The notes under the pieces were generated by a model. It saw only the letters and a list, made by a program, of their open reading frames with translations, was not told where the DNA came from and did no database searches. From NCBI GenBank assembly GCA_003132645.1, contig PKYM01000140.1, positions 453 through 13,368 on the forward strand: a stretch of DNA of 12,916 bases, written 5' to 3'. Source of the DNA: Actinomycetota bacterium (lineage in GTDB: Bacteria > Actinomycetota > Thermoleophilia > UBA2241). Shown here piece after piece: positions 5,899-12,074 of the stretch. Position numbers and translations under genes: made by a program. Positions within the stretch are counted from its first letter, which is position 1, and each line of letters begins with the position of its first letter.

Positions 5899-6534
5899 AT
5901 GAACCCGCGCTTCGCGCACGACCTCGATCGCGGCGGCGGCGGCTGCGTGGCCGGCGCCGACGAAGCCGGACGCGGCTGTCTGGCGGGCCCCCTCGTGGCG
6001 GCGGCGGTGGTCTTCGACTACGCCTGCTGGACCGCCGCCGACTACGCAGTCCTCGACCTTCTCAACGACTCGAAGAAACTCACGCGCGCACAGCGCGCGG
6101 ATGTCTTCGCCGGCGTCGTGGCGCACGCCGCGCGCTTCGCCGTCGTCTCGTGCTCGCCGGCCTCGATCGACGGGCGCGGTCTGCATGTCTGCAACCTGCT
6201 GGCCCTGGACCGGGCGCTGGCGCTGCTCGGGCCGGTCGACGGACCGGTCTTCGTCGATGGGTTCGCGCTGCGCTCCAGTACGGTGGTCCATGAGGCCCTG
6301 ATCGGCGGCGACGGCCGCTCCGCGGCCGTCGCCGCCGCCTCCATCGTGGCCAAGGTCACGCGCGACCGCCTCATGATCGCTCTCCACGAACGGTTCCCCG
6401 CCTGGGGCTTCGACCAGCACGTGGGCTACTCGTCTCCCGGTCATCGCCAGGCGATCGCCGAGCACGGCGTGAGCGAGCTGCATCGCATGTCGTTCGCCAG
6501 CGTCGCCTACGAGCAACTCGGGCTGGAGGTGTAG
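5899..6534 (+). CDS. rnhB: Ribonuclease HII
   Basis: RNase HII cuts the RNA strand of RNA-DNA hybrids and starts removal of single ribonucleotides misincorporated in DNA. From the ATG at 5899 the protein is 211 residues. The four acidic metal-binding residues are visible: D21 and E22 in GADEAGRG (19-26), D120 in FVDGFA, and D156 in KVTRDRL. The DSKKL motif (57-61) and the GYSSPGH stretch near 176 are also typical. An in-frame ATG at 5890 would add three residues, but it lies inside the TAGAAT box, so I prefer 5899. The gene begins 27 nt after lepB and apparently has its own promoter. No other RNase H is present in the window. Confidence 0.95.
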   Translation: MNPRFAHDLDRGGGGCVAGADEAGRGCLAGPLVAAAVVFDYACWTAADYAVLDLLNDSKKLTRAQRADVFAGVVAHAARFAVVSCSPASIDGRGLHVCNLLALDRALALLGPVDGPVFVDGFALRSSTVVHEALIGGDGRSAAVAAASIVAKVTRDRLMIALHERFPAWGFDQHVGYSSPGHRQAIAEHGVSELHRMSFASVAYEQLGLEV

Positions 6535-6559
6535 CTCGCCGCAGGCCTGGTCGCGCCGC

Positions 6560-6627
6560 GTTGCAGGTCGCGGCGCGTTGCGGGTGGCGGCGCGTTGCGG
6601 GTGGCGGTGCGTTGCAGGTGGCGACAG
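6560..6627 (+). repeat. Four tandem copies of a 17-bp unit
   Basis: Copies at 6560-6576, 6577-6593, 6594-6610 and 6611-6627 follow the pattern GTTGCrGGTsGCGryrs. Copies 2 and 3 differ at one base. The last copy forms the left arm of the hairpin below. The array starts 25 nt after the rnhB stop in a non-coding gap; 17 is not a multiple of three, which argues against a repeated peptide. Confidence 0.85.
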
Positions 6628-8689: not shown

Positions 8690-10005
8690 GCAGCCGCCGC
8701 CACGAACCCTCTCCACCCGCGACTCCTGGCGCCGCGTCGGCGTCTGTCGATGGCGGTGAGGCGGCGACACCCGATGACGCCGCCGACCTACGCCAGCGCT
8801 GTCTCTGGCTGGCCGAGCGCGCCGCCTACGACCGTGGGCTCGTTGGTCGGCTCGTCAAGGCGCACGGCAGCTTTGCCGCGGCACTGGGCCAACCGCGATC
8901 GACCCTGTCCAAGGCGCTGCGCTCGAGTCCAGGGGACGCTCACGGCGCCGACACAAGCGCCGGGTCGCCCGGTGAGACACCCGAGGGCGTCGTCACCTGG
9001 TGCGACCAGGAGTACCCGCCGCGGCTGCGAGAGCTCTTCGACCCGCCTCCGGCGCTCTTCCTGCGCGGTCGGCTTTGGCCGGACATGCTGCGAGGGTTAC
9101 GGGAACGCCCTACGGTAGCGGTCGTGGGAGCTCGTCACCCCTCGCCCTACGGCCTCGAGATGGCCTGGCTGCTGGGCGCCGGGTTGGCGCGCGCCGGGGT
9201 CAACGTCGTCAGCGGCATGGCGCTCGGCATCGACGCACAGGCTCACGCCGGCGCGCTCGAGGGTCTCGAGCTGGCCGCACCCGGCGAAGGGCTCCCCGAC
9301 GCGCCGGTCGTGCTCGCCGGGGTCCTGGGGGCCGGCGTTCGCCTGGCCGTGCCGCGCACCAACGAGGAGCTGTTCGGCGCCATCGCCCGGCGTGGCGTGC
9401 TGCTCAGCGAGTACGGCTGGTCGCTGCCGCCGTACCCCTGGCGGTTCCCTGCTCGCAACCGCCTCATCGCGGCCCTGTCCGACGCCGTGGTCATAGTCGA
9501 AGGTCGCGCCACGAGCGGCGCGCTGCACACGGCCGCCTTCGCCCTCGACCTCGGACGCGACGTGCTGGCCGTGCCGGGGGAGGCCGGTCGGCCGCTCTCG
9601 GCGGGCCCCCACCGGTTGCTGCGCGACGGCGCCCACCTGTGCGAGTCGCCCGGCGATGTGCTGGCTCTGCTGCCCGCGGGTCCGTGGTCTGTCCCGGAGG
9701 CGGCCACCAGCAGGGCGGTATCCGCGGCGCGCGCCGGCGACGCGGGCGAGCGTCACGACGCCACCTTGTGGCCGCCGTCCACGGCTGCCGCAGGCGGCTC
9801 CAATGACGCGCGCAGCGGTCCCGAGAGGCATGTGCTGGCAGCCCTGCGACGCGGCCAGCACACTGCCGACCAGCTTGCCCTCGCGCTCGACCTGCCGCCC
9901 CAGGCGGTGTCGGCGGCGCTCACCGTGCTCGAGATCGACGGCCTCCTCGAGGTGCAGCCCGGCGGGCGCTACCGCCTGCGCCGCCGGCGCACGTCGGGAA
10001 CCTGA
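8674..10005 (+). CDS. dprA: DNA processing protein DprA (Smf)
   Basis: DprA binds incoming single-stranded DNA and loads RecA during transformation. From the GTG at 8674, which overlaps comM by 16 nt, the product is 443 residues. There is a disordered N-terminal stretch (1-35), a SAM-like helical region (about 40-85), and the Rossmann-like core: VAVVGARHPSPYG (148-160), SGMALGIDAQAH (180-191), RFPARNRLIAALSDAVVIVE (257-276) and LAVPGE (298-303). A low-complexity linker (about 335-383) leads to a winged-helix domain (384-436). About 12-15 residues (around 197-212) appear inserted before GVLGAGV compared with typical DprA. No later in-frame ATG, GTG or TTG precedes the conserved region, which fixes the start. 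The open frame extending back to 6724 is a shadow of yraN and comM. Confidence 0.95.
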   Translation: MEPTLSSRRHEPSPPATPGAASASVDGGEAATPDDAADLRQRCLWLAERAAYDRGLVGRLVKAHGSFAAALGQPRSTLSKALRSSPGDAHGADTSAGSPGETPEGVVTWCDQEYPPRLRELFDPPPALFLRGRLWPDMLRGLRERPTVAVVGARHPSPYGLEMAWLLGAGLARAGVNVVSGMALGIDAQAHAGALEGLELAAPGEGLPDAPVVLAGVLGAGVRLAVPRTNEELFGAIARRGVLLSEYGWSLPPYPWRFPARNRLIAALSDAVVIVEGRATSGALHTAAFALDLGRDVLAVPGEAGRPLSAGPHRLLRDGAHLCESPGDVLALLPAGPWSVPEAATSRAVSAARAGDAGERHDATLWPPSTAAAGGSNDARSGPERHVLAALRRGQHTADQLALALDLPPQAVSAALTVLEIDGLLEVQPGGRYRLRRRRTSGT

Positions 10006-10167: not shown

Positions 10168-11091
10168 ATGTCGACAGTCCCCAGACCAGACGGCTCCGAT
10201 GACCTGATCGAGCAGTTCCTGCGCTCCCTCGAGGTCCGCGGACTCTCGCCTGCCACGCGACGGTCCTACGCATCCGATCTCGCGCAGCTCAGCGAGTGGC
10301 TGGTCGAGCGCGAGAGTGGGCTCGCCGAACTCGACCGCACGACCGTGCGGGCTTTCGTGGCCGACCTGGGCCGCCGCGGCTATGCGCCGTCCACCCTGGC
10401 TCGCAAGCTGTCTGCCGTGCGCTCGCTCGCGCGGTTTCTGACGGCACGCGATGTGCTGGCCTCAGACCCGGCGCAGTACCTTCCGGGTCCCCGCCGCCGC
10501 CGGCGCCTGCCACACGCCTTGCGACCGGCCGAGGTCGACGCGGTCTGTGACGCGGTGCGCGGCTCCGACCCGCTGGCCCTGCGCGACCGGCTCATGTTCG
10601 AGCTGCTGTACGGCTGTGGGCTGCGCAGCCAGGAGCTGATCGACGTGAGCTGCGACGACGTGCGCGCGGCGCGCGGCGAGCTGCTGGTACGCGGCAAGGG
10701 CGGCAAGATGCGGGTCGTACCGCTCGGCGACGAAGCCGCCGCGGCGCTCGAGCGTTACCTCGCGACTGGGCGGGGTGCCCTCGGGCGGCGAGGAGGCGCA
10801 GCCTCCCCGCCGCCCGAGGGCACCCTTCTGCTGACGCGCAGCGGGCGGCCGCTGCACACCTCGGACGTGCGTCGCGTGGTCACCAAGTACGCCGCCATAG
10901 CCGGCCTCGACGCGGCCTCGCCGCACATGTTCCGGCACGCCTATGCTACGCACATGCTCGAACACGGCGCCGATCTGCGGGCCATTCAGGAGCTTCTGGG
11001 TCACAGCTCGGTCTCCACGACGCAGATCTACACGCACGTGAGCGGCGCCCATCTGAAGGCCGTCTACCGACGACATCACCCGCGATCGTGA
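10168..11091 (+). CDS. XerC/XerD-type tyrosine recombinase
   Basis: This tyrosine recombinase of the Xer family resolves chromosome dimers at dif sites. The 307 residues comprise an N-terminal SAM-like core-binding domain (about 10-95) and the catalytic domain with all active-site residues: R153 (GLRSQEL), K177 (GKGGKMR), H253 and R256 (PHMFRHAYATHML), H279 (LGHSS) and Y288 (QIYTH). Position beside dprA suggests the XerC branch, but XerC and XerD cannot be separated by eye. Residues about 202-219, rich in Gly, Arg, Ala and Pro, form a surface loop roughly eight residues longer than in E. coli XerC as I recall it; this loop is encoded by a large inverted repeat. The ATG at 10168 has a weak Shine-Dalgarno sequence. 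The preceding 162-nt gap has no TAnnnT box and only a 6-bp hairpin (10084-10102). Confidence 0.95.
   Translation: MSTVPRPDGSDDLIEQFLRSLEVRGLSPATRRSYASDLAQLSEWLVERESGLAELDRTTVRAFVADLGRRGYAPSTLARKLSAVRSLARFLTARDVLASDPAQYLPGPRRRRRLPHALRPAEVDAVCDAVRGSDPLALRDRLMFELLYGCGLRSQELIDVSCDDVRAARGELLVRGKGGKMRVVPLGDEAAAALERYLATGRGALGRRGGAASPPPEGTLLLTRSGRPLHTSDVRRVVTKYAAIAGLDAASPHMFRHAYATHMLEHGADLRAIQELLGHSSVSTTQIYTHVSGAHLKAVYRRHHPRS
10773..10825 (+). repeat. 25-bp inverted repeat inside the xer gene
   Basis: Arms at 10773-10797 and 10801-10825 are complementary at 24 of 25 positions (the exception is A10791/C10807), around a 3-nt loop GCA. The element is entirely in coding sequence and is read as a Gly/Arg/Ala/Pro-rich loop at about residues 202-219. 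Confidence 0.92.
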
Positions 11092-11210: not shown

Positions 11211-11282
11211 GGAGAGGTTGTCCTTTTGGGCGACAGTGCGGGCAACAGCGGCGTTGTGACGTCGTTGAGTGAGGTCGCATCA

Positions 11283-12074
11283 ATGGCTCGTCTCGACGAA
11301 GCAAGGATCAACGATCTCTGGCGGCGGTTCAAGACCGACGGTGACCAGCAGGCCCGGGATCGGTTGATCCTGGCCTACTCGCCGCTCGTCAAGTACGTCG
11401 CCGGGCGCATGGGCAGCGGCCTGCCGGCGCACATCGAAGAATCCGATCTCATAAGCTACGGCCTCCTCGGACTCATCGGCGCGCTCGAGCGCTTCGACCT
11501 CGGACGCGAGATCAAGTTCGAGACGTATGCGATCTCGCGCATCAAGGGTTCGATCATCGACGAATTGCGCTCGCTCGACTGGGTGCCGCGCTCGGTGCGC
11601 AGCAAGGCTCGCGAGATCGAGCGCGTGTGCGCCCGCCTCGAGAATCGCCTGCAGCGCGCCCCCTCCGACGACGAGATCGCCGCCGAGATGGGCGTCACGA
11701 TGCCCGAGTTCCATCACGCGCTGACGCAGATCTCCAACACCTCGCTCGTCGCGCTCGACGAGCTCTGGGCGATCTCCGGCTCCGACGGCGACACGGCGTC
11801 GCTGATCGACACGATCGAAGACCCCAAGGCCCGCGACCCCTCGCGGATGCTCGATCTCTCCGAGATGAAGGCGCGGCTCGCGGCGGCCATCGATGCCTTG
11901 CCGCCGCGCGAGAAGATCGTCATCGCGCTCTACTACTACGAGAGCCTGACTTTGCGCGAGATCGGCGAGGTCCTGGGCGTCACCGAGTCGCGCGTCTCGC
12001 AGCTTCACACCAAAGCGATCCTGCGCCTCAAGGGCCGCCTGCGCGACGAGATCGAACCCGCTGTCATAGGGTAA
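11283..12074 (+). CDS. whiG: RNA polymerase sigma factor, FliA/WhiG family
   Basis: This is a sigma-70 group 3 factor of the sigma-28 type. FliA members direct flagellar genes and WhiG directs sporulation genes in Streptomyces. The 263 residues contain region 2 (about 29-100: LILAYSPLVKYVAGRM, SYGLLGLIGALERFD, FETYAISRIKGSIID), region 3 (about 104-160) and region 4 (about 200-252) with the helix-turn-helix LTLREIGEVLGVTESRVSQ (222-240). Region 1.1 is absent, as in group 3. The ATG at 11283 has TGAGGT at 11270-11275, 7 nt upstream. A TTG at 11226 would add 19 residues but lies only about 9 nt from the predicted transcript start. The position between xer/dprA and rpsB matches whiG of actinobacteria; no flagellar or anti-sigma gene is present, so the regulon is unknown. 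Confidence 0.93.
   Translation: MARLDEARINDLWRRFKTDGDQQARDRLILAYSPLVKYVAGRMGSGLPAHIEESDLISYGLLGLIGALERFDLGREIKFETYAISRIKGSIIDELRSLDWVPRSVRSKAREIERVCARLENRLQRAPSDDEIAAEMGVTMPEFHHALTQISNTSLVALDELWAISGSDGDTASLIDTIEDPKARDPSRMLDLSEMKARLAAAIDALPPREKIVIALYYYESLTLREIGEVLGVTESRVSQLHTKAILRLKGRLRDEIEPAVIG

Follow-up and report, generated by a model that had tools for sequence, protein, structure and literature searches.

How a long, nearly perfect palindrome comes to lie within the reading frame of a conserved gene is the question raised by a XerC-like tyrosine recombinase encoded in the window, the 12,916 nt stretch of Actinomycetota DNA analysed here (Table 1). The inverted repeat described in the original prediction was recovered by a repeat search of the window, with 25 nt arms that are complementary at 24 of 25 positions (96%) and flank a 3 nt spacer; the single mismatch, read from the sequence, is A10791 facing C10807. 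It encodes the peptide RGALGRRGGAASPPPEGTL in a frame that is open throughout, and each codon of the right arm is matched by one of the left, position 3 of a codon pairing with position 1. A near-perfect inverted repeat is therefore found wholly within a conserved gene without introducing a stop, and the frame is kept, as had been expected, with the 307 aa ORF running through it. In profile searches the product scores above the cutoff of NF001399 and matches TIGR02224 with an E value of 1.1e-89, below the cutoff of that profile, while the sequence-nearest solved structure is E. coli XerD (1a0p; E = 1.1e-54). No variation is seen at K177, H253, R256, H279 or Y288 across 48 aligned rows, and as K177 and H253 are among these residues, the predicted position of the palindrome between two catalytic blocks is borne out. 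Judged from its sequence, the recombinase gene appears to be in working order; its neighbours are a dprA-like gene (8692-10005) on one side and a whiG-type sigma factor gene (11226-12074) on the other.

Table 1. Positions in the window of the recombinase gene, the parts of its palindrome and the associated direct repeats
Feature	Position	Strand	Evidence
XerC-like tyrosine recombinase gene, 307 aa, palindrome inside	10168..11091	+	ORF, profile matches, catalytic residues
Left (5') arm, G-rich, codes (R)GALGRRGG	10773..10797	+	Repeat search, RNA fold
Loop GCA, 3 nt, one complete Ala codon	10798..10800	+	Repeat search, codon register
Right (3') arm, C-rich, codes ASPPPEGT(L)	10801..10825	+	Repeat search, codon register
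Direct repeat CGGGCGGC, 8 bp, copy 1, in left arm	10782..10789	+	60-nt deletion end point
Direct repeat CGGGCGGC, copy 2, downstream of palindrome	10842..10849	+	60 nt from copy 1

When folded as RNA, the 63 nt from 10768 to 10830 reach -61.4 kcal/mol (z = -8.18), a stability equalled by none of 200 dinucleotide shuffles. A search of Rfam over the palindrome returned nothing above the gathering score, the best sub-threshold match being mir-2756 at 24.7 against 61 bits, and the right flank, TTCTGCTGAC, contains no run of T 3' of the palindrome such as is seen in an intrinsic terminator. The linker that hosts the palindrome spans from a helix (ERYL..GRG.L) to a strand (LLL.RSGR.L) and varies in length among relatives. 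It measures 14 residues in the present gene; most close homologues have 12-14, the parsed set of homologues ranges from 6 to 29, and the family member G007 has 50. The original prediction that this loop is longer than usual holds in relation to E. coli XerD (1a0p), over which it has six additional residues in a pairwise alignment, but not in relation to most close homologues. By this comparison the palindrome occupies a linker of ordinary length.

Linkers could be scored in 116 of the 120 XerC homologues listed, requiring codons to be able to pair one-for-one and in register. A permutation p value of at most 0.01 was obtained for 13 of the 30 scorable linkers among P0001-P0033, compared with 0 of 86 among P0034-P0120; the codon-complement score was 7 or 8 in 11 of P0001-P0033, and reached a maximum of 6 in P0034-P0120. 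The linker residues themselves vary, P0016 for instance having Gln for Glu opposite Leu. This suggests, rather than demonstrates, that the hairpin has been kept in the near clade of XerC homologues, because the rows are related, the test reads protein only and 17 of the 30 close linkers fail it. P0001 has an identical linker peptide, but could itself represent the cluster to which the window's protein belongs, while variants of the same peptide are found in P0002, P0003, P0004 and P0009 (sources jgi, lgn and ena). Three metagenomic homologues, P0005, P0026 and P0029, have in-frame deletions across the linker, and P0005 reads, over that stretch, exactly as the product of a 60 nt deletion between the 8 bp repeats at 10782 and 10842. 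The linker of another close homologue, P0013, GRPGGPPPPPPHGPQQRPRNGRPL, looks frame-shifted, perhaps from trouble in copying or sequencing the hairpin.

Within the family, an uncultured one of the Thermoleophilia, the XerC gene of G007 (genus g3) carries a perfect 29 bp stem with a 3 nt loop in the same linker, unrelated in sequence and folding at -78.5 kcal/mol. A stem score (pairs minus 2 per mismatch) of at least 13 was found at this site in none of the ten other members with an unbroken linker (G002, G003, G005, G006, G008-G012 and G014); G001 and G004 have NN there, and G013 is without a XerC among the matches listed. In G001, the single congener compared with the window's own assembly (G000), the gap falls exactly at the linker. 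NN gaps were found at hairpins in 0 of 33 cases in G000, 0 of 11 in G001 and 1 of 5 in G003; such gaps were therefore rejected as marks of hairpins and the one in the G001 linker was not used as evidence. A 24 bp perfect palindrome with NN in its middle lies at an assembly gap in G003 (L160, 178-227), and the xerC contig of G007 has a second perfect hairpin, of 24-25 bp, outside the called genes (L036 163-214 / L136 1662-1713).

The second Xer gene of the genome is similarly affected. In G000, XerD is encoded with a perfect 19 bp stem and 3 nt loop just before the linker corresponding to that of XerC, and the G001 orthologue has a perfect 21 bp stem at the same place. Of the 38 arm bases that they share, only two are different, and these are the partners of a single pair (G:C in one, A:T in the other), changing Gly to Ser, or the reverse, on one side and silent on the other; elsewhere in the gene 18.0% of bases differ. 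The best stem at this site scores no more than 9 in 11 of 13 other family loci, the exceptions being G001 (21) and G002 (13). A residue that is Val or Leu in all 12 others is Ala in G000 and G001, and another that is Asp in 8 of the 12 is His in both.

Such palindromes are not confined to the Xer genes. For the sampled stretches, gene calls were made by simple scoring of codon usage, and stems with loops of up to 8 nt were scored. The samples comprised 9.5% of G000 (contigs C1-C40 by number, plus the window's own contig), C1-C9 plus the XerC contig of G001, and C1-C20 of G007, which include its XerC contig; contigs consisting entirely of N (four in G000, one in G001 and seven in G007) were counted as empty. 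At a score of at least 18, nine coding hairpins were found in 237 kb of G000 genes (273 genes), eight of them outside the window's contig, a density of approximately one per 26 kb of called genes. The corresponding counts were four in 107 kb in G001, six in 126 kb in G007, one in 290 kb in G003, and none in G028 (217 kb) or G021 (148 kb); 11 further family genomes, sampled at 5-60 kb each, had none in 284 kb, with one at a score of at least 16. The mean of five synonymous permutations at the same threshold was zero for each of the first six genomes other than G007, for which it was 0.2, such that the 9.5% sample of G000 contains many unrelated coding palindromes above the codon-preserving expectation. 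Five of the nine G000 cases are clearly within conserved proteins, namely XerC, XerD, an RlmKL-like methylase, a TilS-like protein and the product of a DUF7033-domain gene. The other four are close to one end of their called gene and, where a domain scan was made, fall beyond the matched domain; they are less sure, one having no open frame over its flanks. A Pfam scan of ten chosen hairpin genes (seven from G000, two from G001 and one from G007) found a domain in all ten.

Elsewhere in the window, a perfect 16 bp stem with a 3 nt loop is found inside rnhB (6303-6337). G007 has a hairpin in the same peptide, GGDGRSAAVAAAS, and because it recurs in this conserved peptide the rnhB hairpin is read as driven by the protein sequence. 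Just downstream of rnhB, a 24 nt unit occurs four times with 17 nt spacing (6549-6623).

The strong hairpins share a directional composition. Among the family genomes, at scores of at least 16, those with the G-rich arm on the 5' side outnumber the converse by 30 to 4 in genes and by 37 to 3 outside them. The two orientations are evenly represented at a score of 8 (69 to 73 in G000 and 57 to 60 in G007), but the stronger the hairpin, the greater the bias, with 14 to 6 and 11 to 6, respectively, at scores of 12-13; in G028 the corresponding figures are 49 to 33 at a score of 9 and 4 to 7 at 12-13. The commonest loop in coding hairpins is 3 nt (17 of 36). Codon position 3 is paired with position 1 in 20 of 34 strong hairpins, a further two of the 36 giving no open frame, although this register is uninformative because weak and codon-shuffled hairpins share the same preference. 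The original prediction had allowed that the hairpin might stop transcription within the gene. A T-rich tail (at least five T in nine bases) accompanies none of the 36 coding hairpins, and the terminator reading was rejected on this basis; such tails lie beside 2 of 48 other hairpins, a count that includes those of G028 and G021.

In three aligned genes the palindromes seem to have replaced residues common in the family with codons that complete the stem, and so to have altered the encoded proteins. The clearest example is the DUF7033-domain gene, where the family motif ERPLD..ELPLA is already a quasi-palindrome. A residue that is Pro in 12 of 13 relatives (Ala in the other) and in the second copy in G000 is here Gln, its CAG codon facing CTG and completing the stem. 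In G005 that stem is present and still mismatched, and the gene has no match in G001. Likewise, a residue of the RlmKL-like methylase that is Gly in seven of eight relatives with an aligned residue is here Ala, GCG facing CGC, the eighth being the congener G001, which is poorly aligned there and has Ala and no stem. A stem-completing change that would be templated by the other arm, with the imperfect state in relatives, is seen in the DUF7033-domain gene, and the RlmKL-like and XerD changes are consistent with one. The TilS-like gene shows no evident replacement at a conserved position, and its hairpin is absent from the G001 orthologue. Coding palindromes have therefore been gained and lost between related species.

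A number of explanations can be set against these observations. A chance product of GC-rich codons for Gly and Arg followed by Pro has some initial appeal, since the peptide itself favours complementarity: when the protein was held fixed and codons were drawn from usage in the window's genes, random recodings most often had 15 of 25 positions paired. However, none of 200,000 such recodings reached 24 pairs, the maximum being 22, which upholds the original view that such a palindrome is not expected by chance. In addition, the sampled genes exceed their synonymous permutations, and hairpins scoring at least 14 are absent from 365 kb of genes in two class-level relatives of higher GC. It had been proposed that relatives without the palindrome, together with a lack of further copies, would mark it as a chance product. 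That expectation is borne out by half, but the conclusion does not follow, because palindromes of other sequence turn up again and chance is excluded by the codon null; barring some local correlation in codon choice, chance can be regarded as exceedingly improbable. The suggestion that a mobile palindromic element, akin to a Rickettsia palindromic element (RPE), REP or MITE, landed in a tolerant loop fits a palindrome that is in frame and inside a variable linker, and RPEs too are in-frame palindromes within genes at tolerant places. RPEs are related copies inserted into genes; by contrast, the stems described here are unrelated in sequence and are not insertions. Searching the own assembly (3.24 Mb in 370 contigs, 88% complete) with a 111 bp query returned the self match alone, and the 25 nt arm, with up to three mismatches allowed, matched only the palindrome itself. 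Comparison with relatives, whose linkers are of similar length, reveals no clean 53 bp insertion across the family, and no arms of coding hairpins in the sample are alike beyond shuffles, with the exception of the orthologous XerD pair; some non-coding hairpins of G000 and G001 do resemble one another to that degree. With no further copies in this assembly, and arms unrelated between the coding hairpins sampled, a mobile repeat was rejected as very unlikely. A fold-back chimera from sequencing or assembly is about equally improbable. Hairpins are hard to sequence, P0005, P0026 and P0029 are deleted across the linker and the congener assembly has NN there; against this, the variants of the linker peptide come from other sources, the XerD hairpin is present in two assemblies with a compensatory difference, and NN gaps are not generally at hairpins.

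Selection on the hairpin itself deserves more attention, although it too appears rather unlikely. An RNA (or DNA) structure might cause ribosome pausing between domains, affect mRNA stability or dampen recombinase expression, with purifying selection keeping the arms paired. This would fit the fact that the genome has a hairpin in each of its Xer genes, the retention of the XerD stem in the congener with a paired change, the common G-rich 5' arm bias and the concentration of linkers fitting codon complementarity in P0001-P0033, the last of these coming from a protein-only test on related rows which most of the close ones fail. The host genes are, moreover, functionally unrelated, encoding RlmKL-like methylase, TilS-like, CobS, AlkZ-like, Dus and TetR proteins; some of the hairpins turn over between congeners; the XerC site is without one in all ten other family members with an unbroken linker, and most XerD loci beyond G000 have at best a weak stem; and T-rich tails are lacking.

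The palindrome is instead probably the product of polymerase template switching in a linker that tolerates it. A chance quasi-palindrome would have arisen in the GC-rich, weakly constrained XerC linker; the polymerase, switching template within the hairpin and copying its own nascent strand, would then have replaced one arm with the reverse complement of the other, leaving a near-perfect stem. The same process, operating across G000, its congener G001 and the family member G007, would produce many unrelated palindromes in genes, and persistence in the genus may reflect both tolerance of the hairpin by the linker and repeated switching that re-perfects the arms. Of the causes considered, template switching is the best supported, ahead of selection on RNA or DNA structure, as it would account for stems that are perfect yet unrelated in sequence, for changes that come in pairs, for the substitution of conserved residues and for the speed of turnover. 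Several observations weigh on the other side, among them the Ala of the G001 RlmKL-like gene and the lack of an evident replacement in the TilS-like gene. No pair of sequences from before and after captures the switch in XerC itself, because the gap in G001 bars reconstruction of the ancestral linker; the codon complement that protein sequences suggest for many close homologues would also be given by selection on structure; known repair genes do not account for which lineages are affected; and simple template switching does not predict the G-rich 5' arms of strong hairpins, for which fold-back of G-rich nascent strands can be offered as a guess.

Several repair functions were compared with the density of hairpins. 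SbcD matches above the cutoff in G000, G001 and the low-density G003, and has no match in G007 or in G021, the latter with a sample free of coding hairpins; as the presence of SbcD does not track hairpin density, loss of SbcCD was rejected as the cause. For SbcC, 14 of the 15 genomes of the family give a match but none exceeds the cutoff; as only 1 of 14 controls does so, this gene is uninformative. RecJ, matched in 13 of 15 family genomes, does not track density. In E. coli, ExoVII limits mutations of this kind. Its large subunit gene, xseA, has no match in 14 of the 15 genomes of this family (f1; G000-G014) and a marginal one in the other, as opposed to matches in 12 of 14 controls; since low-density members are also without xseA, its absence would be at most predisposing. 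It is possible, if doubtful, that some Thermoleophilia lineages have a hyperactive and directional form of hairpin writing, in which newly made G-rich strands fold back to serve as their own template, such that genes including both Xer loci collect and re-perfect palindromes at the expense of conserved residues, with an unrecognised peculiarity of replication or repair setting both the rate and the G-rich 5' arm bias.

Parallels exist in other systems. In E. coli it is established that quasi-palindromes are made perfect by template switching (PMC7202029); the process has been inferred in yeast genes (PMC8604942) and has been argued both to create and to maintain hairpins (PMC8794818). The E. 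coli mutations, for which a thyA hotspot is cited in that paper, likewise perfect an imperfect repeat and change the gene, but concern reporter and hotspot sites (PMC7202029), whereas here a standing set is seen over a sampled genome, fixed in the lineage. Similarly, homogenisation of arms yields nonsynonymous gene changes in yeast, where events in 39 genes were inferred between strains (PMC8604942), while here near-perfect stems of 18-29 bp are still visible. The closest resemblance is to the mitochondria of Nematomorpha, in which perfect inverted repeats are found in many functional genes and are gained and lost between species, and for which the authors prefer repeat conversion, for example by template switching, over a function (PMC6649704). 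Those palindromes are mitochondrial and up to 284 bp in length, in contrast to the bacterial chromosomal stems of mostly 16-29 bp described here, which are GC-rich with G-rich 5' arms; phase 1 is favoured and phase 3 disfavoured in the mitochondria, whereas the pairing of codon position 3 with 1 seen here in 20 of 34 corresponds to their phase 2 and is also the preference of chance hairpins in these genomes. The same paper contrasts RPEs with coding palindromes, and attributes the rarity with which inverted repeats overlap genes to conflict with the encoded protein (PMC6649704). A survey that covered 1,565 complete genomes of bacteria places most inverted repeats around, not within, annotated features, its main text not containing the string 'Thermoleophil' (PMC10434271). 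Among the papers listed by literature searches, judged by titles and the starts of abstracts and with subscription journals thinly covered, none reports long palindromes inside genes across a whole bacterial chromosome, which is weak evidence of novelty; the clearest prior case of coding palindromes found is that of an animal mitochondrion.

Coding palindromes in this bacterial lineage point to a route by which several residues of a protein can change through mutation rather than selection. They also serve as a warning against the usual practice of taking paired changes in a stem to prove a functional RNA, since ordinary genes can acquire them. As members with low and high densities of such palindromes are found within one genus (G003 and G007, both in g3), the family lends itself to a natural comparison of the factors that govern template switching.
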